Assembly (NCBI RefSeq): GCF_032197885.1
Contig: NZ_CP134159.1
Coordinates: forward strand, 2,480,001-2,544,000
From: Levilactobacillus namurensis
Lineage (GTDB): Bacteria; Bacillota; Bacilli; Lactobacillales; Lactobacillaceae
DNA length: 64,000 bases
Direction of reading: 5' to 3'
Below are positions 461-48,505 of the stretch, piece after piece; position 1 is the first letter of the stretch; the number at the start of each line of letters is the position of its first letter. The notes beneath the pieces were generated by a model, which made no database searches, had not been told where the DNA came from, and was given only the letters and a program-made list of their open reading frames with translations. The position numbers and the translations under genes are program-made.

Positions 461-617
461 GCCTTACCGGACGGCCAGACAAGGCTGGAACGCCATGGGC
501 ACAACTTGAAGCCCCAAGTGCAGGTCTCCAAGCTTGGCCTTTTCCTAGGCGAGCTGAAAAACGCTCACCAAGGAAAATGTCACGGCTGAGCCTTGTCTGG
601 CCGTCCTCACGGCTTAC
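461..617 (+). repeat. Structured intergenic repeat, copy A
   Basis: A 157-bp element with an 18-bp perfect inverted repeat: GGACGGCCAGACAAGGCT at 469-486 pairs with 589-606. Inside are GCCaTG/CAcGGC (one mismatch), hairpin P2 (CTTGAAG with CTCCAAG, 6 of 7 pairs) and hairpin P3 (TTTTCCTAGGCGAGC with GCTCACCAAGGAAAA). The constant junction words GGGCAC-ACTT and TGTCAC are present. The conserved orientation (called top here) reads on the plus strand. The 3' side continues for about 45 nt with sequence shared only with copy C. No protein is encoded. Confidence 0.85.
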
Positions 618-695
618 AGTCGTGTAACCATGGCGGAACATGATTCGCCACTAGGCTGTGGTATTCAAGCATATTATTGACGACTATTATTGGTT

Positions 696-727
696 AAAAA
701 AGACCCCATCCTAAACAGGATAAGGTC
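696..727 (-). terminator. Possible terminator, minus strand
   Basis: GACC-cc-ATCCT-aaac-AGGAT-aa-GGTC hairpin followed on the minus strand by six T. It lies in a gene-free stretch, so what it ends is unclear. Confidence 0.45.
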
Positions 728-889
728 ATAGTGGTCGTTTATGTGAGTCAGACCGCCAATCGCTTGTAGCATCAAGTGTATGGTGATGCACATCAGCGAC
801 TCGAGGTTGCCTGCTTATTTGGCTTTAACAGTCCCACACGTTGATATTTCCAATTTAAAACGTTGGGAAAACTGCCTTAGGTAGCTCAA

Positions 890-920
890 TCCAGCCTCTT
901 CAGGGCACAACCGGTAAGGC
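890..920 (-). repeat. Fragment F of the structured repeat (one outer arm)
   Basis: Read on the minus strand, this matches the first 30 bases of copy B (GCCTTACCGGTTG, then CCTGAAGAGGCTGGA) with a small change in the middle. The rest of the element is absent. It faces copy A across a 272-bp spacer, the same convergent arrangement as pairs B/C and D/E, so it is probably the remains of a partner copy. Confidence 0.65.
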
Positions 921-955
921 AGATGAGAATGTCACTCCCCTTGGCTCAACGTACG

Positions 956-984
956 AAAAAAGCCTGGGCACCTAGTCCCAGACT
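956..984 (-). terminator. Terminator of the MarR gene
   Basis: AG-c-CTGGG with an 8-nt loop and CCCAG-a-CT, followed on the minus strand by six T, 15 bp after the MarR stop. Confidence 0.75.
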
Positions 985-998
985 CTTCCAAAATTATC

Positions 999-1547
999 CT
1001 AGAGATTCCCCATCCGGTTGGTGTGTTTCTCAGAGTGCCGGTTGGAGTTCCGTCGTTTATCATGTAAACTGTCAAACCCAACAAAGCCTGCCGCAATCGC
1101 ATTTTCGTTAGCCTTGTGGAGGACGTCGATAAAGTGTTCCGCTTCGTCGCGACCGAAGAAGCCTAACCACCGGTGGAACCGTTCGTCCGTGGCTTGGGCC
1201 AAGTTCCGTTGAACCCGACTCCCCGCCGCCGTTAAAGTGATGTACTTCACCCGCCGGTCGTTAGGATCTACTTTTTGCATCACGTAGTTTTCCTTCAGGA
1301 GGACGTTGACTTGACGGGCAATCGCGCTCTTGGAGACCCCCTCGAGCTTGGCCAGTTCTACCAACGTCTGACCGTTCTTGCTCCGCGCCACGTTCTCCAT
1401 GACCATGTAAGCTTCAAATGTCAGGTTGTACTTCTGCGTAGGGATCGACACGAAGTCCCCAATGTACTTGAAGATGTGCATGTACAAGTCGTCAAATTCT
1501 TGCTTGAGCTGTGCTTCCGTTAACGTGTCATTCGTCGTTTCTGTCAT
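999..1547 (-). CDS. MarR-family transcriptional regulator
   Basis: A 182-residue cytoplasmic DNA-binding protein. Residues about 35-140 carry the winged helix: helix-turn-helix around LVELAKLEGVSKSAIARQVN, then the beta wing VDPNDRRVKYITLTAAG (the DxRxxxxxLT signature of MarR). The N-terminal helix and the C-terminal DEAEHFIDVLHKAN helix form the dimer interface in this family. The last 25 residues are an Arg/Asn/His-rich tail that is not part of the domain. It is a single gene with its own terminator, and nothing adjacent reveals its target or ligand. The family is certain from the wing motif; the regulon is unknown. Confidence 0.9.
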   Translation of the reverse strand: MTETTNDTLTEAQLKQEFDDLYMHIFKYIGDFVSIPTQKYNLTFEAYMVMENVARSKNGQTLVELAKLEGVSKSAIARQVNVLLKENYVMQKVDPNDRRVKYITLTAAGSRVQRNLAQATDERFHRWLGFFGRDEAEHFIDVLHKANENAIAAGFVGFDSLHDKRRNSNRHSEKHTNRMGNL

Positions 1548-1798
1548 TGTCTTCCCATTACTCCTTTGCGGTCGCGCATCATGCGAACCAAGTCATTGTT
1601 TTTGTCTGTCCGGCAGTTCCGTCACGATGTCCCCATCAATCTTTGCCAGGTTCAGTGATGATTCTAGCCAAGTATATCACCTGTTATACGATTCAACCAT
1701 AAAGTAAATTATCCGGTGATGTTAAAAATAGGGCTCCCCAAAACGGAACATATGTTCTATAATAGATTTAATCTTCACCTCAAGGACGTGATGACCAT

Positions 1799-2029
1799 AT
1801 GCAACCTGCCAGTCAGCAAATTCGATCAACCTTGCAAACAGCCTACCAGGAAAACCAGTTAGCCTCCCTGATTGCCGGAGGACTAACGTATACGGGGACT
1901 GTGGATTTCGTGACCCCAACCACCGTTTTCCTGGGATTAGCTGCGGGTCGTTCTTGTGAACTGCCGTTGGCTCAAATCAGCCAAGTAAATTTACACCAAT
2001 TACGACCATGGTGGTATCTATACACTTAG
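1799..2029 (+). CDS. Small protein of unknown function, 76 aa
   Basis: The ATG at 1799 follows AAGGA at 1782-1786 and a TATAAT -10 box at 1758-1763, which supports real expression. The protein has a helical N-terminus and then a beta-rich core (YTGTVDFVTPTTVFLGL and SCELPLAQISQVNL) that could be a small SH3-like or YolD-like barrel; this is a resemblance only. There is no signal peptide or membrane helix. It lies between MarR (divergent) and the terminator of the DUF4097 gene (convergent). Confidence 0.55.
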   Translation: MQPASQQIRSTLQTAYQENQLASLIAGGLTYTGTVDFVTPTTVFLGLAAGRSCELPLAQISQVNLHQLRPWWYLYT

Positions 2030-2321
2030 TGTACCAGATACACCCCTGATAGTATCGCTTCCCTACCCGAAAACATCAACCTTTTTGAAAAATTGTCGTG
2101 CTTTGCTTTACAATTTGAAGAATCCGCGTGGTTCTAAGCCTAACGCCGAAAAGTGGTCTAACCAGAGGCCACCCGGAAAGGTCCTCAAACGACAACAATC
2201 TCACCTGATTATACTCCCGTCAGTCAAGAAATAGTAACCCCAAATTGCCCTACATGGTAACATTCCTAATGTTGCATAGAATAACTAGTTCCCATTAAGC
2301 AATACTTCGGGACCTGAAATT
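2030..2321. other. Intergenic stretch without a recognisable gene
   Basis: Between the 76-aa ORF and a bidirectional terminator. I see no ORF with a ribosome site, no repeat copy and no convincing structured element here. Confidence 0.5.
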
Positions 2322-2364
2322 AAAAAGCTACCGTTCTGTAAATAGGCAGAACGATAGCTTTTTT
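2322..2364. terminator. Bidirectional terminator
   Basis: AGCTA-c-CGTTCTG with its complement CAGAACG-a-TAGCT around an 8-nt loop, A-run on one side and T-run on the other. It ends the DUF4097 gene on the minus strand. Confidence 0.85.
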
Positions 2365-2367
2365 AGA

Positions 2368-3897
2368 TTACTTGAGGTGCACGTTGCCGTTGGTGGTGAC
2401 GACGGTGATTTGGTGCTGCGCGGCATCCCCCACCGCCCCAATCTTATGCTGATCATCATTTAAGCTGAGGTGCACGACTTGGGGTAACGCGACGTGGCCG
2501 TGGTGGGTCTTGAGGTCGAAACGGTAGACCTGATCCGGAGCAACGGTCAGGTGAACGTTGCCCGCCCCATCGGCCGCTAAGTCCCCGGTCAGCCGAGCGA
2601 CACCAATCTTCAGGCTCCCGTGGTGGGCGTGGAAAGTCCCCCCACCCCGTAACTGGTGCACGGTGAGTGAGCCGTTGGCGGTACTCCCCGTCAACTGCCC
2701 CGTTAATCCGTCGACCTGGACGGAACCGTTATGGCTGGTCACCTGGCCGTCACCCTGGAAGTCCGCGATGCGGAGACTGCCATTGTGCGACGTTGCGGTC
2801 AACTGACCCTGCCCGTGGCGAACACCCACCGAGCCGTTTTGACTGCTGACTTGGACTGTGGCCGCTGTAATCTGATCCACCCGGACGCTACCATTGGTGG
2901 CCTGGACCTGCACCCCCGCTAGCTGGTTGTTGAATAGCTTGACGCTGCCGTTCGTGGCGTGGGCCTCCACCGTGGTGGCCAGGTCTAAATCACTGATTTC
3001 CAGGCTGCCGTTGCCCGCATCTAGTTGGACCTTCCCCGTCAGACTAGCCGGCAGGAAGATCTCCGCACGAATATGCAGGGGCCAGAGCCGGGGGAGGTCC
3101 CCCTGTCGCAGGGTCAATTGATCCGCCGACTGGTCGGCCTGTAAGTAGTAGCGCGGGTTATCCCGACTCATGTACTCGTTGACCACAATCTGATTCTGAG
3201 CACTAGGACCCAGCTTAATCGCGGCATCCGGGTAGTTGATGACCAGCTGACGCAAGCCCGTAACCAGGAAGTGCCGGGTGTTGACCAGCTTCAAGGACTC
3301 CACGTAAGTCCGAAAGGTCTGCTTAGCCGTCTGGTCCCGGGAAGATTTATGCCGGTGACTCCCGGTGGAAACGATCTTCTGTCCGGCGATCCGCACGTTG
3401 TCACCATCGACATCGACTAGCCCGTCCGCCACTCGAACATGGTCACCGTCGACCTGGACCAGGTTACCCAGGTGAACCCGATCATGGTCGATAATCTTCT
3501 TCCCGCGCCAGGTGATTTGGTCGCCATGGATGTGTAGCCCGTTCTGCCCGCCAATGCGGACATCATCCCCGTCGTGGTCGACGAAGACCCCATCATCGTC
3601 CGTTTCACTGGTCTGGTCTGCGTTCTGCGCCCCGTGTTCGGCTTTGTGCGTGGTCTCAGATTGCGCGTTGGTCGTTCCCGTGACTTCCTTTAAGAGGCTG
3701 TCAATATCGCCCAGTTGGGCCATGGCCGCATCAATGGCGGCGTCCACGGCCATCCCCTGATTGATCTTTTCCGAGACGGCCTCGGTCAGGTCGGCCACCA
3801 GTTCTTCCTTTAATTCCGTTAAGTCGCGTGAAGCGGGATACCCACTGCATAATTGATCCATCCGCGTCCGAATCTCTAACGTCACTTTTTCGTCCAT
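2368..3897 (-). CDS. DUF4097-family beta-helical protein with N-terminal HAAS-type domain
   Basis: 509 residues. The first 75 form the helical HAAS-type prefix (EELVADLTEAVSEKINQGM, then VDAAIDAAMAQLGDIDSLLKEV) usually found next to PadR regulators. Residues about 100-170 are Asp/Gly/His-rich short repeats (DHDGDDVRIGG, HGDQITWRGK, VDGDHVRVADG, VDGDNVRIAGQ). The C-terminal 300 residues are the DUF4097 beta-solenoid with the repeated word NGS (ATNGSVKLFN, ATNGSVRVDQ, SQNGSVGVRH, SHNGSLRIAD, SHNGSVQVDG, TANGSLTVHQ). There is no signal peptide. The gene starts 2 bp after the PadR gene ends, so the two form an operon. In Firmicutes such pairs belong to envelope-stress circuits (LiaG/YvlB-like); that role is inferred. 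Confidence 0.85.
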   Translation of the reverse strand: MDEKVTLEIRTRMDQLCSGYPASRDLTELKEELVADLTEAVSEKINQGMAVDAAIDAAMAQLGDIDSLLKEVTGTTNAQSETTHKAEHGAQNADQTSETDDDGVFVDHDGDDVRIGGQNGLHIHGDQITWRGKKIIDHDRVHLGNLVQVDGDHVRVADGLVDVDGDNVRIAGQKIVSTGSHRHKSSRDQTAKQTFRTYVESLKLVNTRHFLVTGLRQLVINYPDAAIKLGPSAQNQIVVNEYMSRDNPRYYLQADQSADQLTLRQGDLPRLWPLHIRAEIFLPASLTGKVQLDAGNGSLEISDLDLATTVEAHATNGSVKLFNNQLAGVQVQATNGSVRVDQITAATVQVSSQNGSVGVRHGQGQLTATSHNGSLRIADFQGDGQVTSHNGSVQVDGLTGQLTGSTANGSLTVHQLRGGGTFHAHHGSLKIGVARLTGDLAADGAGNVHLTVAPDQVYRFDLKTHHGHVALPQVVHLSLNDDQHKIGAVGDAAQHQITVVTTNGNVHLK

Positions 3898-3899
3898 GC

Positions 3900-4256
3900 C
3901 TATTCCTCCTGATTGATCTGCCCAGTAATCAGCTGGTCAATGATGGGCTTGGCCACCCGCCAAGCCGCCGTATTCGCTTGTAAGATTTCTTCTCCCTTAG
4001 CGGTAATGTGATAGTACTTGCGCCGTGAGCCCTGGGTCTCGTCCCCCCAGTAATTCGTCACGGCACCGTTCTTGCCTAACCGGCGAAAGACCGTGTAGAG
4101 GGTCGCCTCGTTGAGGTCGTAGTGGCCGCCGCTCAGTTCGCGGACGCGCTTGGCCACCTGATACCCGTAACTATCACCTTGATGAAGAATGTTCAAAATA
4201 ATCGTGTCCGTATGTCCCCGGATGAGATCTTTAGAAATCACCTCAGCCAAACCCAA
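3900..4256 (-). CDS. PadR-family transcriptional regulator
   Basis: 118 residues, the usual length of the short PadR (PF03551) subfamily. The winged helix is visible at residues 12-85: LIRGHTDTIILNILHQGDSYGYQVAKR, then DLNEATLYTVFRRLGKNGAV with the conserved LYxxxxRLxxxG, and the wing GSRRKYYHITAKGEEIL. It is the first gene of a two-gene operon with the DUF4097/HAAS protein, which is the classical genomic partner of PadR. PadR proteins usually repress their own operon and respond to a ligand or envelope stress; the inducer here is unknown. Confidence 0.93.
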   Translation of the reverse strand: MGLAEVISKDLIRGHTDTIILNILHQGDSYGYQVAKRVRELSGGHYDLNEATLYTVFRRLGKNGAVTNYWGDETQGSRRKYYHITAKGEEILQANTAAWRVAKPIIDQLITGQINQEE

Positions 4257-4343
4257 CCAACTCCTCTCGTTCTGGTTGCATTAAATGTATCACCAATTAC
4301 TGTGTGTGTCAAAGTAATTTATCACAAAAGTTTGTCACGACCC

Positions 4344-4377
4344 AAAAGGCGCCGAACGCAAATTCACGTTCGACGCC
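4344..4377 (-). terminator. Terminator of the exopolysaccharide operon
   Basis: GGCG-t-CGAACG / CGTTCG-g-CGCC hairpin with a TTTT tail on the minus strand, downstream of the GH8 gene. Confidence 0.8.
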
Positions 4378-4488
4378 TACACACTCGAGACTGTCTAGAT
4401 TCTAATTGAAAGACTAATCTAGCAACCTAAATGGTCTCCGGAACCGCTAATTAGCCCGGTAAACCGCGATAAGGTAACTGCTTCGCCG

Positions 4489-5649
4489 CTAAGCCAAGTC
4501 CCCACTCATCACTAACATCAACATCTGCAACGTCGCCGCGTAGTAATTATCGGCGGGTTGCTTGGCGGTCAAGAAGGGCAGGTACCGCTGGCTCAAGCCT
4601 TCGTGGCCCATGGCCTGGGCCGCGTACGCTAACGGCGCCGTAAACGCCGGACTGCTGTATTTCTCTTGGGCCTGACCCCCCAGCGTGTAGACGGCTTTAA
4701 TCTCCTTTTGGTGGCTGAAGAAGGTCAGGAGTTTTTCGGCGACTTCCCCACTTAGCGGGCTCTTCGACACTTGATAGTCGTAAGCAGCCCGCCATGGGAC
4801 CCGACAAGCGTTGAAACCATACGCGTTGTCGAACTTCGACGCAATCTGGTTAGGCCGGACATCCTGCAAGTTCAAGTCCTGGTTGGTCACCCGGATAAAG
4901 TCCGGAATCAAGCCCGTTGAGTGGCGGTCGCTAATCTTCTGGAGAACCTTCTGACTATTTAAGGCCACCTTGATCCAGGACCCATCCTGCATGTATTTGG
5001 CGAATTTCCGGAAGTAGGCGGTCGACAAGTCCGATGGCCGGATGATTTGGGTACTCTGGCGGCTGGTCGCCCAGTTCCCCACCCGCGGTAGCTTCGTACG
5101 CGGATTGATTTCGTACTTTTCAATATCACTGATCAACTGCTGTGCGAGGGTCTTATAGTCTAAATCCCCGATACTTCCCCACCGCTCATGGGCCAACAAC
5201 AGAGCGTAAGCGATGTCCAAGTCGCCATCGGTCGCACTGGTCGCCGCAGCCTCACGATCCTTCATCTGATGCTGGACCTGTTGCTGACGCCAAGCCATCA
5301 GCGCGTTGTGCCGACCAATCCGGTGGTCGAGGTAGTACCGGGTCAACTGGTCGAAGGTCCGCCGGGTCGCAATTCCGTGTTCCGCAGCCAGCACCGTAAT
5401 CAGCATGCCGTATCCCTGAGCCTCGGACAGGGCCTGCTCGGGACCCTTAGTCGTGGTGCGCACGTGCTTCACTTGGTTCCCGCTAAGGTACTCCCGTTGC
5501 CACTGGCGGTAATGCTGCTGAATCATGTGGCTCTTAACCACGGCAACGGTCCGGGGTCGGTGTTGGGTGAAATAGATGGCGCCAGAAATGGCCAACGTGA
5601 CCAGGACCAACAAACTCCCAATCAGCCATTGAAAACGATGATGCCGCAT
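4489..5649 (-). CDS. Glycoside hydrolase family 8, membrane-anchored
   Basis: 386 residues with a single N-terminal membrane helix (about residues 8-28), so the enzyme sits outside the cell. The GH8 catalytic signature is present: Glu76 in SEAQGYGM (proton donor region) and the ATDGDLDIAYALLLA motif at 139-153 with the conserved aspartates. GH8 enzymes cut beta-1,4 linked glucans or glucosamine polymers; beside a GT2 synthase they trim or help export the polymer (compare BcsZ in cellulose operons and PssZ in Listeria). It is the last gene of the operon, 12 bp after the synthase. The exact polymer cannot be told from sequence. Confidence 0.9.
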   Translation of the reverse strand: MRHHRFQWLIGSLLVLVTLAISGAIYFTQHRPRTVAVVKSHMIQQHYRQWQREYLSGNQVKHVRTTTKGPEQALSEAQGYGMLITVLAAEHGIATRRTFDQLTRYYLDHRIGRHNALMAWRQQQVQHQMKDREAAATSATDGDLDIAYALLLAHERWGSIGDLDYKTLAQQLISDIEKYEINPRTKLPRVGNWATSRQSTQIIRPSDLSTAYFRKFAKYMQDGSWIKVALNSQKVLQKISDRHSTGLIPDFIRVTNQDLNLQDVRPNQIASKFDNAYGFNACRVPWRAAYDYQVSKSPLSGEVAEKLLTFFSHQKEIKAVYTLGGQAQEKYSSPAFTAPLAYAAQAMGHEGLSQRYLPFLTAKQPADNYYAATLQMLMLVMSGDLA

Positions 5650-5661
5650 CCCAGTCCCTCC

Positions 5662-6966
5662 TTAAAAGCGTTGCGTCTTGTACCACTGGGTCCGCCGTTT
5701 CCCCGTTACCCGGTCGCGACAGATATCCCAGACTGCCGCCAGCGCCACCACGATGAACAACTGGGCATAGGTAAAGTAGGCCACCAGACTATAGAGAAAG
5801 TTCTTAACGGTCGCCTGACCATAATCGCTGGCTAAGGCGATGTTGAGCTGGAGCAGGTACAGGTAGAACATCAAAAACCAGTTCACCAGAAACAGGAACG
5901 CCACCGGGCCATCGAGGTTCAACATGGTATGCAACGCCGGGTTCTCCCACTGCATCAGCGCCAAGAAGCCGTTTCCCAAGAAGGTCACGTTCGAGATGAC
6001 GATGGCCGCGTTGAACCAGAAGAAGGTGCACATGTAATACAACACCTCCAACTTGATGCGCCAGGGGGACCGGTCGAATAGGTGCTTGAGGTTGGCCCCC
6101 AACACTTCATAGTTTCCCCGGGCCCAGCGCTTCCGTTGGTTGTAGTAGGCAAAAAGCGTTTCGGGTTCCTGTTGAAAGGCCTCGGCTCGGTGGGCCAGCG
6201 CAATCAACTTGTCGCGCCGCATCAGGTTGAACGAGATTTCGGTATCCTCGGTCAGCGCCCCGTTGTGCCAACCACCCAGCTCTTGGACCACCTGCTTATT
6301 GATGATGAAGTTGGTTCCCGGAATCCGCCCAATCTTAAAGAGTTGCCACAACCCCGTGTGCTGAATCCGCTGGGTGTTGATGATTTCCAAATTGATGCAC
6401 CGCGTGAGAAAGTTTTGCTGGTAGTTTCGCGTCTTGTTACGTCCAAACGCCGCGGCGTAGCGGTCCGGGTCTTCCAAAACCTTCTGGACCAAGAAGTACA
6501 GGGCGTTGCGTTCGGGCGCCGCATCCGCATCATACACACCCAGGTACTCGCCGGTCGCAATCGCCAACGCGTCGTTCAAAACTCCCGCCTTTCCGCCGGT
6601 TCCCGTGCGCTCAATCACGGTCAGGTTCCGCCCCTGGAACTCGGTCCAGGTCAGTAGGCTTCGGGCCGCAACGGCGGTCTGGTCCTGACAGTTGTCTGCG
6701 TAGACTAGGACCTCCAGGCAATCGGCCGGATAGTTCAACCGTAAGATGGCTTTGACCGTGTCTTGAATCACCAGCTCTTCGTTATGCGCCGGCACCACGA
6801 CCGTCACCCGGGGCGTGCGCCGCAATGGCGGTAAGTCATCTACGTCAGTGCGGTGAAGATGGCGCAACAAAAAGAGCACCCCACCACTCAACGTGACCAG
6901 CGTCATCCCGATTGAGACCCAGATAGAAATAATGGACAGCACGTATAAATAATCAATCACGGCCAT
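5662..6966 (-). CDS. Membrane GT2 glycosyltransferase (exopolysaccharide synthase)
   Basis: 434 residues. One membrane helix at about 8-36, then a cytosolic GT-A domain, then four or so C-terminal helices (about 300-420). Processive-synthase motifs are all there: VVVPAHNE at 57, the first Asp at 91 (YADN), the DAD triad at 146-148, TED at 239-241 and QRKRW (QxxRW) at 277-281. This is the BcsA/IcaA/PssC type, which polymerises and exports a beta-linked polysaccharide. There is no PilZ domain, so any c-di-GMP control must come from a partner such as the adjacent GGDEF-like protein. Its start overlaps the end of the 45-aa membrane protein by 14 bp, indicating translational coupling. Confidence 0.93.
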   Translation of the reverse strand: MAVIDYLYVLSIISIWVSIGMTLVTLSGGVLFLLRHLHRTDVDDLPPLRRTPRVTVVVPAHNEELVIQDTVKAILRLNYPADCLEVLVYADNCQDQTAVAARSLLTWTEFQGRNLTVIERTGTGGKAGVLNDALAIATGEYLGVYDADAAPERNALYFLVQKVLEDPDRYAAAFGRNKTRNYQQNFLTRCINLEIINTQRIQHTGLWQLFKIGRIPGTNFIINKQVVQELGGWHNGALTEDTEISFNLMRRDKLIALAHRAEAFQQEPETLFAYYNQRKRWARGNYEVLGANLKHLFDRSPWRIKLEVLYYMCTFFWFNAAIVISNVTFLGNGFLALMQWENPALHTMLNLDGPVAFLFLVNWFLMFYLYLLQLNIALASDYGQATVKNFLYSLVAYFTYAQLFIVVALAAVWDICRDRVTGKRRTQWYKTQRF

Positions 6967-7090: not shown

Positions 7091-7104
7091 GGTCAACGCC
7101 TCCT

Positions 7105-8203: not shown

Positions 8204-8209
8204 CTACAA
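8204..8209 (+). promoter_or_regulatory. -10 box of lepB
   Basis: TACAAT, 37 bp before the lepB start; the -35 box is weak. Confidence 0.45.
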
Positions 8210-8245
8210 TGAGACCACTTTACAAAAACGGGAGTAATCAATATT

Positions 8246-10612: not shown

Positions 10613-10630
10613 AAGAACACCTCCGTATGA

Positions 10631-17684: not shown

Positions 17685-17800
17685 AACGCTTCTTACCATA
17701 AATACGTCTTAATTTTTCGATTCGACGACGGCCGAACTCCAGCTTAAACCAATGTCAGTTTAGATACCCCCTGCCGGAACGTTGCAACCAATCCAATCGT

Positions 17801-17959
17801 CAGCCGTGAGGGCAATCAGACAGGGCTCAGCCGTGAAATTTTCCTTGGTGAGCATTTTTAGCTCACTTAGGAAAAGGCCAAGCTTGGAGACCTGAACTTG
17901 GGGCTCCAAGTTGTGCCCACGGCGTCCCAGCCCTGTCTGGCCGCCCGATAAGGCGCTGA
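17801..17959 (-). repeat. Structured intergenic repeat, copy G
   Basis: Top orientation on the minus strand, starting 33 bp after the dacA stop. The outer stem differs from copy A but still pairs (AGCCCTGTCTG with CAGACAGGGCT, plus GGGC/GCCC with three non-pairs between). GCCGTG/CACGGC, P2 CTTGGAG/CTCCAAG (7 of 7) and P3 (13 of 15 plus one wobble) are all formed. Junction words GTGCCCAC and CCGTGA are kept. Confidence 0.85.
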
Positions 17960-30098: not shown

Positions 30099-30150
30099 AC
30101 ACGAAAAAAGCCGCCGTCAATGAGCTATCGTTGACGGCGGCCTTACTATC
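30099..30150. repeat. Direct repeat 1 (terminator copy) flanking mazEF
   Basis: 52 bp identical at 51 positions to 30896-30947. It contains the stem GCCGCCGTCAA / TTGACGGCGGC and serves as terminator for the araC-type gene or mazF. Confidence 0.85.
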
Positions 30151-30181: not shown

Positions 30182-30547
30182 CTACATCATTTCAAAAATA
30201 TCTTTGATTGCATTAGCGGCTTGATACCGTGTAGCCCGGCTAACGCTTTCGACAATTTCACCATTTCGAGCAACATAGTCATATCCTAGTAGACCGCTTA
30301 AAATGGCATATCCATGTATCTTATTACCATTTATTTTTAATGCCATCGGAAAGCCGTTAGGGACAGCAGAGGTTATTGGGAACCCAGCAATCATTTTTGT
30401 ACGTTCATTATAAACGCCCGAGCTCATCACCAAAAAAGGACGTCGAATATTTTTCTGAACCACGCTATGTCCACCATACTCATGACCTGCATGAGGTTCC
30501 GCATCTATCCACACAATATCTCCTTGAACCGGCATCTTACCAGACAT
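30182..30547 (-). CDS. mazF: MazF/PemK-family mRNA interferase toxin
   Basis: 121 residues from the ATG at 30547, which overlaps mazE by 11 bp; MPVQGD four codons later is an alternative. The fold signature is clear: PVQGDIVWIDAEPHAGHEYGG, then RRPFLVMS, FPITSAVPNGFPMAL and the DYVARNGEIVESVS block. MazF cuts single-stranded RNA at short sites and is held by MazE. Base composition is clearly more AT-rich than the flanking xylose genes, a sign of separate origin. Arrangement (antitoxin first, overlap) is canonical. Confidence 0.92.
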   Translation of the reverse strand: MSGKMPVQGDIVWIDAEPHAGHEYGGHSVVQKNIRRPFLVMSSGVYNERTKMIAGFPITSAVPNGFPMALKINGNKIHGYAILSGLLGYDYVARNGEIVESVSRATRYQAANAIKDIFEMM

Positions 30548-30773
30548 TTTCTTTACCAATAGACTGACCATGATCGCCAATCCCCATCTCATCCATCGCT
30601 GCCTTAACATCATACGACGGATCCTTCTTAAATAAATTTTGATGAACTGGAATAAAAGAGATGATGCCATTTTCATCCATTACTGGTGTATATTCCGCAT
30701 TTTCCGGAATCTCAAAACTTGATGGAATGGTTACCATTAAAGAGTTTCCTTGCTTTCTAGTTTTAACCTTCAT
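30537..30773 (-). CDS. mazE: MazE-type antitoxin, AbrB-fold
   Basis: 78 residues from the ATG at 30773, 8 nt after GGGAGGAG. Residues 1-45 are a swapped-hairpin (AbrB/MazE) DNA-binding domain: MKVKTRKQGNSLMVTIPSSF, and the C-terminal acidic tail (DVKAAMDEMGIGDHGQS) is the part that covers the toxin. It represses its own operon in this family. AT-rich like mazF. Confidence 0.9.
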   Translation of the reverse strand: MKVKTRKQGNSLMVTIPSSFEIPENAEYTPVMDENGIISFIPVHQNLFKKDPSYDVKAAMDEMGIGDHGQSIGKENVW

Positions 30774-30895: not shown

Positions 30896-30947
30896 ACACG
30901 AAAAAAGCCGCCGTCAATGAGCTATCGTTGACGGCGGCTTTACTATC
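30896..30947. repeat. Direct repeat 2 (terminator copy) flanking mazEF
   Basis: Second copy of the 52-bp sequence, one mismatch. On the minus strand it ends in six T and terminates the 63-aa membrane protein gene; this was probably the original shared terminator before mazEF arrived. Confidence 0.85.
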
Positions 30948-40661: not shown

Positions 40662-40674
40662 GTTTGCCGCCCTC

Positions 40675-42018: not shown

Positions 42019-42478
42019 AGCTACTCCTTCTAAGGCGCCGAATCCGTGTGCCGCACGAATCCAATCACCATTGTGACGACTTTTCGCCAGTTTAGCGCTT
42101 TCCCTAGCCGCTAACGGAGAATCAGTCCCGTTTCAGGTCTGGTTAGCCCACTTAACTGACGTTATGGTCACCCTTTTTTATGAATATAATCATAGTTTGA
42201 TTAGGGACTAATGTAAATAGAAAATTAATAGTTTTCACAAATTTATAGGTTTAGGAAAGCGCAATTGGTATAGTCCTATAGAAAAGACTGGTCTAGCTGT
42301 TTAAATGACTGGCTAGTCTGTACCAAATAAAATTGGTTTAATCCTCTTAACTAAATTGGCTTATCTTGAAATCACAACAATACCATTCTCATGTTCAGCA
42401 TACTAGCCTCACCAGGCGCGCCACTGAAAAGGTCTGAATTATGCACATGTTTTCAATAAATATGCATCTAAGCCCACT
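42019..42478. other. AT-rich intergenic region without a gene
   Basis: About 460 bp with poly-A/T tracts, presumably carrying the promoter of the permease/ROK operon. A weak inverted repeat (AGACTGG...CTAGTCT) lies near 42285-42320. No ORF with a ribosome site and no copy of the structured repeat. Confidence 0.5.
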
Positions 42479-42509
42479 AAAAAACCTCCCGGCTAGTTCA
42501 CCGGAAGGT
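42479..42509 (-). terminator. Terminator of the aldo/keto reductase gene
   Basis: ACCTTCCGG / CCGGGAGGT with six T on the minus strand. Confidence 0.85.
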
Positions 42510-42550
42510 CCCTTTAATCTGTTTAATTTTCACTTAGCCGAACTAAACGA

Positions 42551-43399
42551 TTAGCCTTGCGTTGCGTTGTGGAAATGGTTCGCAGCTGTATCGGCCATCC
42601 CGTTCAACTTGGCCATGTCAGCGGCGGTAATCGAGAAGTCCAACTGAGCGTTGGCTTCAATGTGGTCCTGACTGGTTGCCTTCGGTAAGGGCAATACGCC
42701 ATTTTCCAAGCAGAAGCGGAGGGCCAACTGTGCCGCGGAAACGTGGTACTTGGCCGCCATTTCCTTCACAGCCGGGTTGTTCAACATGTCACCCGTTGCC
42801 AACGGCGAGTAAGCTTCGACCAATAAGTTGTGGTCGGTCGCAAACTTCACGATCTTAGGTTCCGTGTAGCCCACGTAGTATTGAATCTGGTCGACCATCG
42901 GGGCCACTTCGGCGTGGGACAAGATATTCTGCAAATCATGGACGTTGAAGTTAGAGACGCCAATCGCCTTGGCTTTCCCCGTCGCGTAAATCTCTTCCAT
43001 CGCGCGCCAAACATCGAGGTTCGCCGCGTCACAGTCCTTCCCGATTTCATTCCATGGCCACGGCGCATGAATCAAGTACAGGTCCACGTAATCGATATCC
43101 AGATTCTTCATCGTAGTCTGGAAGTCGGCCAACGCCCCCTTATACGACTTGGTTTCAGCAGGCAACTTGGTGGTGACGAAGATGTCGCTCCGGTCGATAC
43201 CGGAGTCCCGAATCGCCTTCCCCACACTCGACTCGTTCGCGTAAGCCTTGGCCGTGTCAATGTGCCGGTAGCCCGTCTTTAAGGCGTTAGCGACAGCGTC
43301 ATAGGCGGTCTGCCCACCTGGGATCTGCCAAGTCCCGAAGCCCACTTGGGGAATGGCGGTGCCATTTGCTAATTCAAAGGTATCCGTTAAAACTGCCAT
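42551..43399 (-). CDS. Aldo/keto reductase (2,5-diketogluconate reductase type)
   Basis: 282 residues, (beta/alpha)8 barrel. Catalytic tetrad: Asp50 and Tyr55 in DTAKAYANE, Lys in VTTKLPAE near 78 and His in YLIHAPWPW near 110. The NADPH site is at the C-terminus (LPKATSQDHIEAN, with Lys and Ser/His contacts). The family reduces aldehydes and ketoses with NADPH; in lactobacilli such enzymes handle methylglyoxal and other carbonyls. Single gene with terminator. An 18-bp palindrome lies 130 bp upstream. Confidence 0.92.
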   Translation of the reverse strand: MAVLTDTFELANGTAIPQVGFGTWQIPGGQTAYDAVANALKTGYRHIDTAKAYANESSVGKAIRDSGIDRSDIFVTTKLPAETKSYKGALADFQTTMKNLDIDYVDLYLIHAPWPWNEIGKDCDAANLDVWRAMEEIYATGKAKAIGVSNFNVHDLQNILSHAEVAPMVDQIQYYVGYTEPKIVKFATDHNLLVEAYSPLATGDMLNNPAVKEMAAKYHVSAAQLALRFCLENGVLPLPKATSQDHIEANAQLDFSITAADMAKLNGMADTAANHFHNATQG

Positions 43400-43528
43400 A
43401 TCAAAAAACCTCCATTCAGATGACTATGGGGCCAGTATAGTCCCTTAAGGTCACTCGAAGGCAAGTATTTTGTGAAGGTTTCCACCAGAATCAGGGCCAT
43501 CAAGTGATCTGTGATCCTGCTGGCATAA

Positions 43529-43546
43529 ATTTGTAATATTACAAAT
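43529..43546. promoter_or_regulatory. 18-bp perfect palindrome, probable operator
   Basis: ATTTGTAATATTACAAAT, between the aldo/keto reductase gene and a candidate small RNA promoter. It may control either. Confidence 0.65.
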
Positions 43547-43587
43547 CGCGTGGAAGCCCCAAAACTACCGGTTTCTCTGTTATGATA

Positions 43588-43750
43588 ATTCTGTCGTAAA
43601 GATTGCTTAACACAAACAGACGACAAACTAAAGCTTTTTTGGTGCCAGTGCCGGTGGTACCCGGAAACTACCTTCGGCGATAACTGCCTCCAAACCATAA
43701 CCCCATTGAATCAGACTAAATCCCAGTTTGATTCAATGGGGTTAATTTTT
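43588..43750 (+). ncRNA. Candidate small RNA, about 160 nt
   Basis: -10 box TATGAT at 43581-43586, then GTCGT/ACGAC, a long irregular hairpin (TTTGG...CCAAA enclosing CAGT/ACTG, GCCG/CGGC and GGTA/TACC), and a 15-bp terminator AACCCCATTGAATCA with its complement, followed by ATTTTT. No ORF. The terminator T-run lies on the plus strand, whereas both neighbouring genes are on the minus strand, so an independent plus-strand transcript is implied. Confidence 0.6.
43699..43750 (+). terminator. Terminator of the candidate small RNA
   Basis: Perfect 15-bp stem with AATTTTT on the plus strand only. Confidence 0.85.
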
Positions 43751-43765
43751 ATGCATTTTCGGGGT

Positions 43766-44194
43766 TCACTTGACCTGCAGGGTCTGGGCTAACCGTTGTA
43801 AGACCCGTAAGAGTTCCGCCCGGTCAGCCGCCGAATAATCACTCAGCCGTTCTTGAAGCTCAGCCGCTCGAGCTAGTTGAATCCGTAACAAGCCTTGGTG
43901 CCCCGCGGCACTCAGGGTCAATCGGCGGACCCGTTGATCCCGCCGGTCGGGCTCTTCAAGCCACCCCGCCGCCATCAACCGGTCGACCTGCCGACTGACC
44001 GACGAGTGGTTCCGCCCGATATGGTCCGCCAGTTGACCCACGCTGATGTTGGGCTGCCGGGCGACCCAGACCACGATGGGTAAGGCCGCTGGCTCCAAGT
44101 GCACCCGCGCCCGTTGCAACAGGCAGCGGTCCCGTTGCGGCTGGTCGAAGAACGTCACGATGTCAAACAACGCTTCAAAAATATCACTATCCAC
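43766..44194 (-). CDS. MarR-family transcriptional regulator
   Basis: 142 residues from the GTG at 44194 with GGGGG upstream. Winged helix: ISVGQLADHIGRNHSSVSRQVDRL with the recognition helix, and the wing EPDRRDQRVRRLTLSAAG (DxRxxRLxLT). It is divergent from the NADPH-dependent FMN reductase, 120 bp apart, and most probably controls that gene in response to redox or quinone/phenolic stress, as YodB/HypR-like and other MarR proteins do beside flavin reductases. No regulatory cysteine near the N-terminus is obvious except Cys in DRCLLQRA (about residue 24). Confidence 0.9.
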   Translation of the reverse strand: MDSDIFEALFDIVTFFDQPQRDRCLLQRARVHLEPAALPIVVWVARQPNISVGQLADHIGRNHSSVSRQVDRLMAAGWLEEPDRRDQRVRRLTLSAAGHQGLLRIQLARAAELQERLSDYSAADRAELLRVLQRLAQTLQVK

Positions 44195-44314
44195 GATTTA
44201 TACCCCCTACTCGCTAGATTAGTCACCAACCATTCAGCTCCTGATTGATTGTTAGTATACCAGAACCATGCTACCATGTGCATGACGCACAGACTAACCT
44301 GAAGGAGTGATTGG

Positions 44315-44872
44315 ATGACAAATCCTAAAATCGGGATTATTGTGGGGTCCACCCGGCCCAGTCGTATCGGTCCCAGTATCGCTGATTGGTTGCAAAAGCA
44401 GTTAAAGACGCCCCACCTGGACGTGGACGTAATTGATTTAGCCCAGATCGACCTGCCACTACTAGACGAGATTGCCATGCCCAGCGACGGCCATTACGAA
44501 CTCGAACATACCAAGAACTGGAGCCGTTTGATTCAGGGCTACCAGGGCTTCGTCTTGCTGTTCCCGCAATATAATTGGGGCTATCCTGCGCCCCTAAAGA
44601 ACGCGCTGGACTGCCTCTACAGCGAGTGGCGGGGCAAGCCTGTCAGCATGGTTTCCTACGGCGGACGCGGGGGCTTCCAAGCAGCGCTGGCCCTGTCGCT
44701 GGTTCTCCGGGGACTCAAGTTCCACCGGTTAAGCACCAACATTGAAATTTCTCTAAAACCTGCCGATCTCGACAGCCACGGACACTTCAAGGCGCCCAAC
44801 CAAGCCTTGGCCCCGTATGAATTTAACGTTCAACAGTTAAGTGCCGAATTCCAGCACGTGCTGACCGACTAA
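44315..44872 (+). CDS. NADPH-dependent FMN reductase
   Basis: 185 residues with a flavodoxin-like fold. The FMN phosphate loop is IIVGSTRPSRIGPSIADW, and the second FMN contact is FPQYNWGYPAPLKNALDCLY. The GGRGGFQ loop near residue 110 completes the flavin site. Enzymes of this family reduce FMN, quinones, azo dyes or nitro compounds with NAD(P)H. Divergent MarR gene suggests inducible detoxification. ATG after AAGGAG, own terminator. Confidence 0.92.
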   Translation: MTNPKIGIIVGSTRPSRIGPSIADWLQKQLKTPHLDVDVIDLAQIDLPLLDEIAMPSDGHYELEHTKNWSRLIQGYQGFVLLFPQYNWGYPAPLKNALDCLYSEWRGKPVSMVSYGGRGGFQAALALSLVLRGLKFHRLSTNIEISLKPADLDSHGHFKAPNQALAPYEFNVQQLSAEFQHVLTD

Positions 44873-44901
44873 GCGGCGTTAAGCGCGAGTTGAGCTGTTG
44901 C

Positions 44902-44936
44902 AGCGCTGTAAAACGATGGTTTTACAGCGCTTTTTT
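44902..44936 (+). terminator. Terminator of the FMN reductase gene
   Basis: AGCGCTGTAAAA / TTTTACAGCGCT with six T. Confidence 0.92.
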
Positions 44937-44973
44937 CTACGTTTAATCAAGGGACAGATTGTGGTAATCCCCC

Positions 44974-45134
44974 GCCTTACCGGTTGGCCCTGAAGAGGCT
45001 GGAACGTGGTGGGCACGACTTGGAGCCCTGAAAGTCCCAGGTCTTCAAGCTCGGCCTTTGGGTAAGCCAGCTGAAAAACACTGACTAACCCAAACGACAC
45101 CACTGAGCCTCTTCAGGCCCAACCTCACGGCTAC
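44974..45134 (+). repeat. Structured intergenic repeat, copy B
   Basis: Top orientation on the plus strand, 38 bp after the terminator of the FMN reductase gene. The outer stem is GGTTGG-c-CCTGAAGAGGCT against its complement (18 of 19 pairs), a different sequence from copies A, C and D but the same shape. Inner GTGG/CCAC, P2 CTTGGAG/CTTCAAG (7 of 7 with one wobble) and P3 TTTGGGT...ACCCAAA (12 of 14). Junction words GGGCAC-ACTT and AGCTCGGCC are kept. Confidence 0.85.
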
Positions 45135-45348
45135 ATTGAGCGTATCAAAAACAGTGTTTCCTGACGTCCAAAATTGGTACCGTGTGGGACTCTTAAACTA
45201 AAACACTAAGGCGTAAATCTTATCAGACCTCGAGTCCGTGGTAGGCATCATCATACTTGCGTCATGGCCACAAACGGGTGGCAACCTTATTCATACCAAC
45301 CACTACGGCCCGTCGGCAAATCATGTTTTGCTATTGGGTTACACAACT

Positions 45349-45503
45349 GTAAGCCGAGAGGACGGCCAGACAAGGCTCAGCCGTGAAATTTTCCTTGGTG
45401 AGCGTTTTCCAGCTCGCCTAGGAAAAGGCCCAGCTTCGAGACCGCTTTGTGGCTCGAAGTGGTGCCCACGGCGTTCCAGCCTTGTCTGGCCGTCCGGTAA
45501 GGC
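45349..45503 (-). repeat. Structured intergenic repeat, copy C
   Basis: Top orientation on the minus strand, facing copy B across 214 bp and starting 38 bp beyond the GDPD terminator. Outer 18-bp stem as in copy A, GCCGTG/CACGGC perfect, P2 CTTCGAG/CTCGAAG (7 of 7, a clean double change from CTTGGAG/CTCCAAG) and P3 with 13 pairs, one wobble and one mismatch. The 45 nt beyond its 3' end match those of copy A. Confidence 0.87.
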
Positions 45504-45540
45504 GGACATTTTCCACCATCCTGTCCTTGACTAAACGTAG

Positions 45541-45573
45541 AAAAAAGCCTGGGAAACACGCCCAGGCTTTTTT
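45541..45573. terminator. Terminator of the GDPD gene
   Basis: AGCCTGGG / CCCAGGCT with A6 and T6 flanks, bidirectional. Confidence 0.9.
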
Positions 45574-45582
45574 CGTGCTATC

Positions 45583-46290
45583 TTAATTTTGGGTCGGTGT
45601 GTTCAGAAGCTCGCGCTTCAACGCCATCATGGTCACAAAGTCATCGGTGAAGATGCCGGCCACGTGGTCCTGGAAGAGCCGCTTGGCTTGCCGCACACTA
45701 TCGACGGTCCAGATTCGTTCCACCACGGGAACGCCGTCTTGGTAGTGACTCAAGTGCAGGCCCGCCAAGTGCTCCTGCCGGACAAAATCAACGGGGTCCT
45801 TGACCCGTTTATCCGTCAACCAACAATACAGCTCATCCGGTGCTAAGGCCTGACAACGCTTAATGGTCGGCAGGTGGAACGACGAGAAGATAACCGGATG
45901 CCGTAACGGCGTCGCGTGCACCATCCCCATCACGATGCGCTCAATATTGGGATACTGAATCTTATCCGTCTTGAATTCCAAGTTCAACTGCACCTCTTGG
46001 TTCGCCACTAACTTCAAAAACTCCGCCAGTGTGGGCACGGGGTCCCCGTTTGCCAGCTTGAATTGCCGAAGCTCCGCTAACGTGTAATCCTGGATGTACC
46101 CCTTGCCGTTAGTGGTACGGTTGATTTTTTCGTCGTGCATGATGACCGGTACGCTGTCCTTGGTCAGGTGCACATCGAACTCTAAGCCTTCAATCTGGTG
46201 CTCAACCGCGTAGGTGAAGCCGGCCAGGGAGTTCTCCGGGAATTTTGCCGGATACCCGCGGTGCCCCAAAACCATCGTTTGCTTGACCAT
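45583..46290 (-). CDS. Glycerophosphodiester phosphodiesterase
   Basis: 235 residues from the ATG at 46290, 6 nt after GGGGA; an in-frame start 21 nt earlier has no site. GDPD motifs: LGHRGYPAKFPENS (catalytic His and metal residues), GLEFDVHLTKD with the metal Glu/Asp, and IMHDEKINRTTNG with the second catalytic His. The C-terminal WTVDSVRQAKRLF and GIFTDDF are typical. It splits glycerophosphodiesters from phospholipid or teichoic-acid turnover into glycerol-3-phosphate and an alcohol. No signal peptide, so cytosolic. Confidence 0.94.
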   Translation of the reverse strand: MVKQTMVLGHRGYPAKFPENSLAGFTYAVEHQIEGLEFDVHLTKDSVPVIMHDEKINRTTNGKGYIQDYTLAELRQFKLANGDPVPTLAEFLKLVANQEVQLNLEFKTDKIQYPNIERIVMGMVHATPLRHPVIFSSFHLPTIKRCQALAPDELYCWLTDKRVKDPVDFVRQEHLAGLHLSHYQDGVPVVERIWTVDSVRQAKRLFQDHVAGIFTDDFVTMMALKRELLNTPTQN

Positions 46291-46439
46291 GTTATGTCCC
46301 CTTCCCGACATCTCATCGGTTATTTACGCCTAGTGTAGCGCTTCTCGGGTAGAAATGCCGAGTATTTCATCACGCTACCTTCCAGAATACGCCGGCACGG
46401 TGCGGGAACCTTCATGATTGGGTAAATCTTCTGTAAAAA

Positions 46440-47573
46440 TTACTTGCCCCACACGTCGGTGGCAATCTGCTTGACCAGCTTCAACTTGGCCCATTGCTGG
46501 TCTTCCGTTAACTGGTTACCCTCTTCGGTCGACGCGAAGCCGCATTGCGTGGAGAGGGCCAGGTTCTCCAGCGGTACGAACTCGCTGGCCTGCTTGATTC
46601 GGGCCTTGATGTCGTCCGGATTCTCCAGCTCGGGGAACTTCGACGTGATCAGCCCCAGAACGATGCGCTTGTGGGTGTCGTGATTCCAGATGCGCTTCAG
46701 TGGCGTAAAGTCGCCGGCCCGGTCACTATCGTATTCCAAGAACAGGCCGTCGTAGTGCAGTTGTCCCAGGTAATCGGCGATGTCGTCGTAGCTCCCGGAG
46801 AACAGGTACGTGGACTTGAAGTTTCCCCGGCAGACGTGGGTGGTCACGGTCAGGTCGTCCGGTAACCCAGCTAAGACCTGGTTGATGACCCGTACGGCGT
46901 CCTGGGCCAACTTCACGTACTTGGCGTGTTGGTCGGGCTGGTCGGCGGTCGCGTTGAGCTGACTGATCAGGAAGGCCCAGGTGGTGTCATCCAGTTGGAG
47001 GTAGCGGCAACCCAAGTCGTAGAAGTGCTGGATGGTCTGGTGATAAGCTTGGGCTAAATCATCTAAGTATGCGTCCCAGGTCTCGTAGAACTGGTGCCAG
47101 TTATCACTCCGGTTGTCCCGGAACAACATGGTCGGGGACGGGATCGTCTGCTTAACGGCGATGCCGGCCGGAACCAACGTTTGGAGGTAGCTGAAGGTCG
47201 CGAAGAACGGGTGGTCTGGGTTGTAAGCAATCTTACCCACCAGGTCTGCGTTGTCGGTCCGGGTCTTGCTCCCGTGGAACTTGTAGCTTTGGTGGTAATC
47301 GTAATGTCCCACACCGTTCAGTCCCCAGAGGAAGTCCAGGTGCCACCAACTACGGTTGAACTCTCCGTCGGTCACCGCCTTCAAGCCTAAGTTCAGTTCT
47401 TCGTTGACCACGCGCTTGGTTTCGTCGTGTTGAATCGCCGCCAGTTCATCGGCATCGATCAAGCCTTTTGCCAAGCGGGCGCGGGCCTGTTTCAGTGCTT
47501 GGGGCCGCAGTAAGCTGCCGACCACGTCGTAACGGTAAGGATAGGTCACTGATTCTGTTTTGGTATTAGTCAT
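46440..47573 (-). CDS. MetE-like (cobalamin-independent methionine synthase C-terminal type) protein
   Basis: 377 residues: only the catalytic C-terminal half of MetE, as in Bacillus YxjG/YxjH. Signature words: DGEFNRSWWHLDFLWGL, YLQLDDTTWAF, THVCRGNFKS (zinc ligands His and Cys), LEYDSDRAGDF and LALSTQCGFAS (zinc Cys). These proteins methylate homocysteine, or a related thiol acceptor, with a donor that may not be methyltetrahydrofolate. A Met-specific T-box directly upstream ties it to methionine shortage. ATG at 47573. Confidence 0.9.
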   Translation of the reverse strand: MTNTKTESVTYPYRYDVVGSLLRPQALKQARARLAKGLIDADELAAIQHDETKRVVNEELNLGLKAVTDGEFNRSWWHLDFLWGLNGVGHYDYHQSYKFHGSKTRTDNADLVGKIAYNPDHPFFATFSYLQTLVPAGIAVKQTIPSPTMLFRDNRSDNWHQFYETWDAYLDDLAQAYHQTIQHFYDLGCRYLQLDDTTWAFLISQLNATADQPDQHAKYVKLAQDAVRVINQVLAGLPDDLTVTTHVCRGNFKSTYLFSGSYDDIADYLGQLHYDGLFLEYDSDRAGDFTPLKRIWNHDTHKRIVLGLITSKFPELENPDDIKARIKQASEFVPLENLALSTQCGFASTEEGNQLTEDQQWAKLKLVKQIATDVWGK

Positions 47574-47630
47574 CGTTCAAATTCCTCCTCAAAAGTCATC
47601 CCCTAAGGGTCTATCATGGTCGGGGCCAGA

Positions 47631-47905
47631 AAAAAACGCGCCCGTCCCAGAACGAAAATATCGTTCTAGGGACGAGCGCGTCGTTGTACCACCCTAATTC
47701 ACTACCGTCAGGTGACCGGTAGCCTCAACAGTACCGCAAAGCGATACCTGGGAAAGTAACGGTTCCTACCGACCAAGCAGCGTTAACCGCTTGATAGCAT
47801 TTAAGAGGTCATCTTCATGTTGCCGTTACCGACCCGGTTCCACCATGGGGGCTCGCTTAACGGACGGGCAAACACTACTCTTCTCCTAGCCATTTATGAC
47901 AGATC
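47631..47905 (-). promoter_or_regulatory. T-box riboswitch, methionine specific
   Basis: Minus-strand leader of the MetE-like gene. The T-box core AGGGTGGTACAACGA is at 47695-47681, followed by a long terminator (CGCG-CTCGTCCC...GGGACGGGCGCG, T7). Stem I carries GGTGGAACC and the specifier loop with ATG (47818-47816, context AACATGAAG). Uncharged tRNA-Met would stop termination and switch the gene on. Confidence 0.92.
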
Positions 47906-47923
47906 ACTTAGAAATTAAGGGTA

Positions 47924-47952
47924 ATGTTAGGCGTGATTCACGGAATTGTCAA
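47924..47952 (-). promoter_or_regulatory. Promoter of the T-box/MetE-like unit
   Basis: TTGACA (47952-47947), 17-bp spacer, TAACAT (47929-47924) on the minus strand. Confidence 0.85.
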
Positions 47953-48004
47953 GTCGCCCGCGCATTTTTCTGCCCGGGAGGAGGCAACATAGTAACGATT
48001 ATTC

Positions 48005-48161
48005 GCCTTACCGGACGGCCAGACAAGGCTGGAACGCCGTGGGCACAACTTGACGCCCCAAATCCATAGTCCCCAAGCTGGCCTTTTCCTAGGCGAGCTA
48101 AGAAACGCTCACCTAGGAAAATGTCACGGCTGAGCCTTGTCTGGCCGTCCTCTCGGCTTAC
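48005..48161 (+). repeat. Structured intergenic repeat, copy D
   Basis: Top orientation on the plus strand. The outer 18-bp stem equals copy A; GCCGTG/CACGGC is perfect. P3 pairs at 14 of 15 positions (TTTTCCTAGG-c-GAGC). P2 is the weakest of all copies (CTTGACG/CCCCAAG, 5 of 7). It lies between the promoter of the T-box unit and copy E, which it faces across 187 bp. Confidence 0.85.
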
Positions 48162-48348
48162 GATAGCGCAAGCCCAACAATAGTTGACCGCTCCGAAGGC
48201 CTTAAGTTTCTAGTCATGGCTAACCTTCTAATTAGTTTTCGGACAGTACCTAGAGCAACTGAGAAATGCCACCTAAATCAGGTTTCACAGTCCACAGTAG
48301 CACTAGCCTGGCCAACTGCACCATTGATTGTCGCGCACCACCAGGAGG

Positions 48349-48505
48349 TCCCGCCAGCCGATAGGGCCCAGCCAGTGACATTAGCGTTAGGCCAGTGGTT
48401 CTCTGGCCTTAGGCTAAGGCCGAGCTTTGAGATTCGCGATCTTGGCGAAGCTCAAAGTCGTGCCCACTGGCGTCACGGCCCTGCCAATCGGCTGGCGGGA
48501 CCGGA
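48349..48505 (-). repeat. Structured intergenic repeat, copy E
   Basis: Top orientation on the minus strand, beginning 16 bp after the stop of the alcohol dehydrogenase gene. Most diverged yet best folded copy: outer stem GGTCCCGCCAGCCGAT perfect over 16 bp, then AGGGCC/GGCCCT (6) and GCCAGTG/CACTGGC (7). P2 is CTTTGAG-c-TTCGC with its complement (12 bp and one mismatch) and P3 pairs at 13 of 15. Junction words GGGCAC-ACTT, AGCTCGGCC and TGTCAC are unchanged. Confidence 0.87.

Follow-up and report, generated by a model that had tools for sequence, protein, structure and literature searches.

Intergenic repeats that can each be folded into a three-way junction occur several times in the window (the whole 64,000-nt stretch of DNA analysed), which raises the question whether they represent a new structured RNA or something that acts as DNA. 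An earlier sequence-only reading had reported six full copies and taken their covariation as the mark of a selected structure. We favour, at a probability of about 0.5, the view that they belong to non-autonomous transposon-like DNA elements working like MITEs or REPINs. Paired subtypes, near-pure Watson-Crick stems and helix swaps fit such a DNA element with folded ends.

A covariance model recovered all six copies at the places first given (81.4 to 169 bits), and they are real. The count itself proved too low: a seventh copy is carried by a tandem duplication with a spacing of 3,486 nt, and a remnant was read by eye where the covariance model has no match (Table 1). The start of the spacer that precedes this remnant is common to several other copies in the genome, as seen by flank comparison.

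Table 1. Repeat copies, spacers and remnant in the window
Feature	Position	Strand	Evidence
Three-way-junction repeat, A subtype, P1 GGACGGCC...	460..618	+	169 bits, covariance model
Spacer of the composite unit begun by the 460..618 copy	619..889	.	Flank comparison and sequence
Facing partner of the 460 copy, outer end only, GGTTGG subtype, interior deleted	890..920 (approx.)	-	By-eye reading
Repeat, A subtype, single, convergent genes on either side	17798..17955	-	158.4 bits, gene calls
Repeat, GGTTGG subtype, left member of facing pair	44973..45136	+	167.5 bits
Facing-pair spacer, 211 nt	45137..45347	.	Gap between the 44973 and 45348 copies
Repeat, A subtype, right member of facing pair with the 44973 copy	45348..45504	-	164.2 bits
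Repeat, A subtype, left member of facing pair, P2 imperfect	48004..48162	+	153 bits
Repeat, GGTCCCGC subtype, right member of facing pair with the 48004 copy	48342..48503	-	81.4 bits; folds as three-way junction
Seventh copy, duplicate of the 48342 repeat	51830..51986	-	81.2 bits; tandem duplication

The fold is well supported. The folding of three copies exceeds that of their dinucleotide shuffles by 6.5 to 9.7 SD. A MAFFT alignment made without structure was built from 31 copies, five from the window and 26 from related genomes, leaving out the low-scoring subtype (48342 and 51830), the four-armed copies L055 and L056 and one weak match. In it, both sides change in 36 of 53 pairs and 95.1% of the cells pair; the covariation score is 0.512, compared with at most 0.093 after a shift of the partners by 1-3 columns and with 0.163 in shuffles. 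The covariation persists with more copies, both sides changing in 52 of the 53 pairs among 79 distinct copies, although this second alignment leans towards the model because it was fitted to it. One shared three-way-junction fold with strong covariation, as originally proposed, is thus upheld, together with the sequence types of P1 and the constant junction words. The exchange of G-C, C-G and T-A pairs in P2 likewise holds, apart from an imperfect alignment of P2 in the 48004 copy. Outside the stems, 13 of 48 unpaired columns keep one base at 90% or more. The conserved unpaired bases include GGAAC opposite TG, a C-T mismatch and an A-A mismatch, and the same bulges and mismatches are kept across genera. 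Such bases argue that something recognises the fold. Complementary outer flanks were considered as a general extra stem and rejected, since no more than some of the copies show them strongly (mean duplex energy -9.87 vs -8.71 kcal/mol in the diverse set and -9.0 vs -9.15 in the near set).

Selection for an RNA fold, either in mRNA 3' ends or in an element transcribed alone, would be in keeping with this very strong covariation and the conserved loops. A recognised terminator lies between gene end and element in 28 of 75 cases and is missing in 47, so that read-through is possible; 32 further gene ends were too short or too long to score, and the controls (97/205 convergent, 117/298 co-directional) make no informative comparison with 28/75. 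Moreover, A-C exceeds G-T in the stems (20 vs 9 pair columns and 23 vs 10), as if the complementary strand folds. Nevertheless, G-T pairs take up 0.49% of stem cells in 113 near copies and 1.27% in 79 diverse copies, whereas they reach 6.3% in the stems of 46 tRNAs from the same loci, and wobble pairs stay at 0.5-2.0% on either strand of the element. Between orthologous copies, 21 of 61 Watson-Crick-to-Watson-Crick changes are transitions, the share of one third to be expected if the changes do not pass through a wobble pair, and double changes are largely whole-helix swaps. Near-absent wobble and swapped helices form a pattern that points to DNA, on which such covariation can arise via gene conversion or template switching. 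Each unit also holds one copy in each direction, and a search of Rfam 15 at gathering and permissive thresholds gave no convincing match in the elements, the best permissive matches lying beside the repeat or far below the cut-off. The earlier statement that no known RNA class could be recognised is therefore confirmed, while its reading of the covariation as a selected RNA structure retains the strong covariation and the conserved loops and is weakened by the G-T rate, the transition share and the swaps. In sum, the elements share compensatory stem changes with structured RNA families and lack their wobble rate and an Rfam match, and a structured RNA appears improbable. For RNA discovery this is a caution, since covariation in 52 of 53 pairs coexists here with almost no wobble and with whole-helix swaps; wobble rate, transition share and facing pairs are tests applicable to other orphan structured-RNA candidates.

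The same mechanisms might also account for the repeats without any function. One template-switching event can be enough to fix stem pairing (PMC8794818), and long palindromic junk could have its arms matched by template switching and gene conversion only. Orthologues more than 90% identical show 16 double Watson-Crick changes and 70 stem changes of other kinds, as would suit this explanation. Correction of this kind should also remove bulges and mismatches, but these are kept unchanged between genera, and the pairing of subtypes would be left unexplained; functionless palindromes are very improbable.

That pairing bears on the mobile-element reading. In this genome, 48 of the 50 neighbours less than 600 nt apart are in facing orientation and none point away from each other, and outside it the counts are 97 of 106 and none, some of these loci being from L. 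namurensis. Two different subtypes are joined in 46 of the 48 facing pairs, like a left and a right end. In G281, a genome of another genus, 24 facing pairs were read, each of a shorter type and a usually longer one. Repeats that face each other and are of two kinds suggest the ends of a small mobile DNA element more than a new RNA gene. At distances of 600-3000 nt, 4 copies face each other and 12 face apart in the loci examined; this is no excess, and a parent element carrying a gene between widely spaced facing copies was therefore rejected for these loci. Decay is no greater in single than in paired copies (157.0 vs 155.1 bits; permutation p 0.39).

The family is large, 135 copies being scored in this genome, and dispersed, contrary to the initial description as something other than a simple copy-paste repeat. 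Elements are present in 33 of 35 genomes of the genus, and matches were found only in Lactobacillaceae among the samples searched. None of 81 units overlaps a called gene. Convergent gene gaps are favoured (31/81 units vs 141/814 gaps) and divergent ones avoided (9/81 vs 130/814). In this genome the units also avoid 788 kb round the terminus, which was rejected as a general property because it was not seen in genomes G032 and G281. If the mobile-element reading is true, these units rank with the most frequent intergenic features in a genus of food bacteria and have no Rfam entry; the open-licence literature yielded no paper recognisable as describing them.

Comparison between genomes bears on whether the units still move. 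Of the 27 units that could be placed in the L. namurensis comparison, 26 are shared, and sharing falls as divergence rises, from 112/118 sites at a flank identity of at least 90% to 60/68, 82/175 and 5/30. From L. andaensis, 13 sites have both gene neighbours here; read by eye, one of them carries a unit in this genome and the other 12 lack it. Nine apparent absences were followed letter by letter: five hold remnants, so that loss occurs by internal deletion, one is a missed copy, and three without a remnant are indistinguishable from deletion. No target duplication and no clean filled and empty site was found among the nine, and new insertion has no provable case in the orthologous-site comparisons. 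The sharing with L. namurensis and the remnants that losses leave, together with the preference for convergent and avoidance of divergent gaps, the gap round the terminus and the intactness of single copies, would suit immobile ancient repeats that serve the chromosome or the ends of mRNAs, are made alike by gene conversion and are gradually lost by deletion. Like BIMEs, they might protect 3' ends or bind a nucleoid protein or gyrase. Against immobility speak the unexplained order in which two subtypes are paired, the 12 of 13 sites that differ from L. andaensis and the two genomes in which terminus avoidance was not seen; we regard it as unlikely.

For non-autonomous mobile elements speak the copy number, the facing pairs and their two subtypes, the freedom from genes, the L. 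andaensis sites unoccupied here, the fall of sharing with divergence, the rarity of G-T, the low share of transitions, the swapping of helices as blocks and the conserved unpaired bases. Against them count the high sharing with L. namurensis, the undecayed single copies, the lack of an excess of widely spaced facing copies and the lack of a mobiliser, target duplication or clean insertion. In addition, phage and plasmid records gave no match to a copy from this genome in distant mode and viral contigs none by exact motif, searches that could both miss diverged relatives. The Y1 transposase domain PF01797 is absent from this genome and 11 others of the 35, all 12 of which carry elements, and both element-free genomes have it; a Y1 transposase is thus ruled out as the present mobiliser in this genome.

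In a unit, a short spacer free of genes would lie between two ends that face each other and are not identical. Each of them, about 160 nt long, would form a three-way junction, most plausibly in single-stranded DNA, and its conserved unpaired bases may serve as recognition marks. A putative enzyme acting in trans would recognise the folded ends and would have spread the units, while gene conversion or template switching at the DNA level would keep the arms matched; movement would now be rare. Folded DNA is recognised in integron attC sites, IS200/IS605 ends and the terminal repeats of parvoviruses, in which stems are free in sequence and unpaired bases fixed; parvovirus repeats are moreover T-shaped ends that face each other. 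The elements are alike in stems and unpaired bases, a works-like comparison only, no recombinase, Rep protein or cleavage site being known here. More speculative, and unlikely as matters stand, is a previously undescribed class of mobile DNA in bacteria with parvovirus-like architecture, whose two distinct ends would be recognised as T-shaped single-stranded folds and which, at dozens to more than 100 copies in most Levilactobacillus genomes, would be driven by a putative non-Y1 enzyme. If the favoured mobile-element reading is right, a natural system for the recognition of branched DNA by a putative protein would be at hand.

Among described systems, REPINs, doublets of REP sequences with RAYT transposases, come close: in PMC3116915 they are dispersed intergenic inverted doublets, foldable in single-stranded DNA, with compensatory stem changes, and inverted doublets are what was found here (48/50, and 97/106 outside this genome). 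REPINs differ in having one short REP hairpin per side instead of a three-way junction of about 160 nt and two subtypes, a Y1/RAYT transposase, which this genome lacks, and single copies more decayed than doublets, unlike those here. MITEs, by the definition in the same paper, are likewise short, gene-free, dispersed and multi-copy. Their ends are inverted repeats; those here face each other but are long, structured and of two subtypes in 46 of 48 facing pairs, with no parent element in the loci examined and, among the sites compared, no clean filled and empty site that would show a target duplication. The BOX and RUP repeats of Streptococcus pneumoniae, likened here by description (PMC3049150), are also small and interspersed, and their host is a Gram-positive bacterium that belongs to the same order.

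The intergenic elements are real and abundant, and they are not described in the databases and open-access papers searched. A covariance model recovered all six repeats claimed for the window by the sequence-only reading, with ends shifted slightly, and a seventh copy lies within a tandem duplication, on whose first copy zinc-dehydrogenase, M20-peptidase and GtrA-like genes were identified. Window copies have ordinary gene neighbours, of metabolic, hydrolase and regulator types. The same model found at least 135 copies in the window's genome, from which weak copies may be missing because only 150 of 928 candidates were scored. In the genus, 33/35 genomes carry elements (12 to 84 copies each, with at most 84 scored); by plain DNA similarity the count was 27/35. 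Searches over more than 40 genomes, run with stricter filters and few candidates scored per genome, gave 85/301 genomes and 14/40 genera in the family, 24/395 genomes in the order, every one within Lactobacillaceae, and 1/398 in the class, the window's own. Among the matches listed, a motif scan of named genomes included Levilactobacillus, Companilactobacillus, Lactiplantibacillus, Lacticaseibacillus, Schleiferilactobacillus and Pediococcus.

Window copies are ~160 nt each. Their ends are constant, CGCCTTACCGG and CCTCACGGCTTA in most copies, and together close a short outer stem; inside it lies a long P1 of free sequence, followed by a constant internal loop (GGAAC opposite TG) and an inner stem, which the arms P2 and P3, both with mismatches at fixed places, meet at a three-way junction. 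The covariation proposed for this fold was borne out. A structure-free alignment of 31 copies (5 from the window and 26 from related genomes) excluded the low-scoring subtype and two copies with four arms. In it, both sides change at 36 of 53 pairs, pairing holds in 95.1% of cells, and the covariation score is 0.512, vs at most 0.093 for slid partners. Pairs changing on both sides number 52/53 in a covariance-model alignment, itself fitted to the model, of 79 distinct copies drawn from 81 matches in 65 loci. A P2-like arm is duplicated in two loci from other genomes (L055, 1500-1681; L056, 1369-1546), and a four-way junction is predicted on folding the latter. In L096, L099, L114 and L118 at 5264, long copy-specific complementary flanks would extend the outer stem.

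Three copies fold as RNA 6.5-9.7 SD better than shuffles; as DNA, both strands of the single copy tested fold (z -6.9 and -9.0). G-T occupies 0.49% of stem cells in 113 distinct near copies and 1.27% in 79 diverse ones, against 6.3% in stems of 46 tRNAs from the same loci; A-C occupies 1.55% and 2.0%, figures without a control since the tRNA caller accepts G-U and not A-C. Between the window's genome and L. namurensis DSM 19117 (40 orthologous copies; matches below 80% identity excluded), 21 of 61 Watson-Crick to Watson-Crick changes are transitions; for rRNA genes PMC8794818 gives 61.0% as the kind able to pass through G-U. Whole-helix swaps occur in orthologues, both P1 arms or the entire P2 arm being replaced by another allele with the remainder nearly unchanged; read by eye, the swapped-in allele is also found elsewhere in the genome. 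In more similar orthologues other stem changes prevail (70 vs 16). Orthologous divergence is 5.4% at paired and 7.9% at unpaired positions, and in 13/48 unpaired columns a single base makes up at least 90%. Pairing of the stems is maintained, though not via the slow wobble route, and DNA-level gene conversion or template switching fits as its keeper. Correction alone would erase the conserved mismatches, and therefore we infer that something recognises the fold. That the elements are a structured RNA is improbable.

Neighbours less than 600 nt apart face each other in 48/50 cases in the window's genome (one ++, one --, none facing apart) and in 97/106 outside it (6 --, 3 ++). The 48 pairs comprise 31 A+C, 15 A+T, one A+A and one C+C, where T is the GGTTGG type and C the low-scoring class. 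In G281, from another genus, 24 facing pairs, read by eye, each join a ~160-nt type to one that is usually ~170 nt long. Spacers in the window's genome measure 36-301 nt, and 0/81 units (spacers counted in; 4 further units at stretch edges unscored) overlap called genes. The element at 460 has a facing partner whose interior is deleted. By eye, the long-pair spacers 619-889 and 45137-45347 are shared with other units of the genome, and spacers of long pairs contain a hairpin that, on the minus strand, carries a T run.

Coordinates of features in the window
Feature	Position	Remarks
Facing pair	44973-45504	
Facing pair	48004-48503	
Tandem duplication	48342-55250	3,486 nt; left break inside element, ~48350 and 51836

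Facing pairs of unlike members around gene-free spacers have the look of a small mobile element with a left and a right end. The elements may act in the manner of a MITE or REPIN whose ends are structured and distinct, a reading to which we give a probability of about 0.5; an immobile, BIME-like role is rather unlikely. They are not filed as REPINs because three of the four REPIN features tested failed. Single elements here are as intact as paired ones, unlike REPINs, whose single copies are not, according to PMC3116915. Of the 35 genomes in the genus, the window's own and 11 others lack a Y1 transposase (RAYT/IS200 type); these 12 all carry elements, and both element-free genomes have the transposase.

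Against L. namurensis DSM 19117, 27/34 units were placeable by both flanks, and 26 of these 27 hold at least one element in the window's genome. For L. andaensis, 13 sites have both gene neighbours in the window's genome, of which, read by eye, 1 is occupied and 12 are not. Over all loci, sites are shared in 112/118 cases at flank identity of at least 90%, falling with lower identity to 60/68, 82/175 and, below 70%, 5/30; the loci overlap, which makes these counts non-independent. Of nine apparent absences examined in full, five retain end remnants, one was a missed copy and three lack a remnant. Neither these nor the sites compared gave a proven gain. The comparisons and remnants therefore indicate species-scale turnover of sites, with loss by deletion proven.

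Convergent-gene gaps hold 31/81 scored units vs 141/814 gaps of the same stretches, and divergent-gene gaps 9/81 vs 130/814, by a simple gene caller written for the analysis. A region of 788 kb (929-1717 kb of G000:C1, in the window's genome; centre 1.323 Mb) is copy-free, with a GC-skew switch at ~1.34 Mb near its centre; its post hoc chance probability is 1.6e-11 for 85 uniform units, and terminus avoidance was not found in two other genomes, G032 and G281. In the window, two 52-nt hairpin sequences, 98% identical (30099-30150 and 30896-30947), flank an ORF at 30182-30676.
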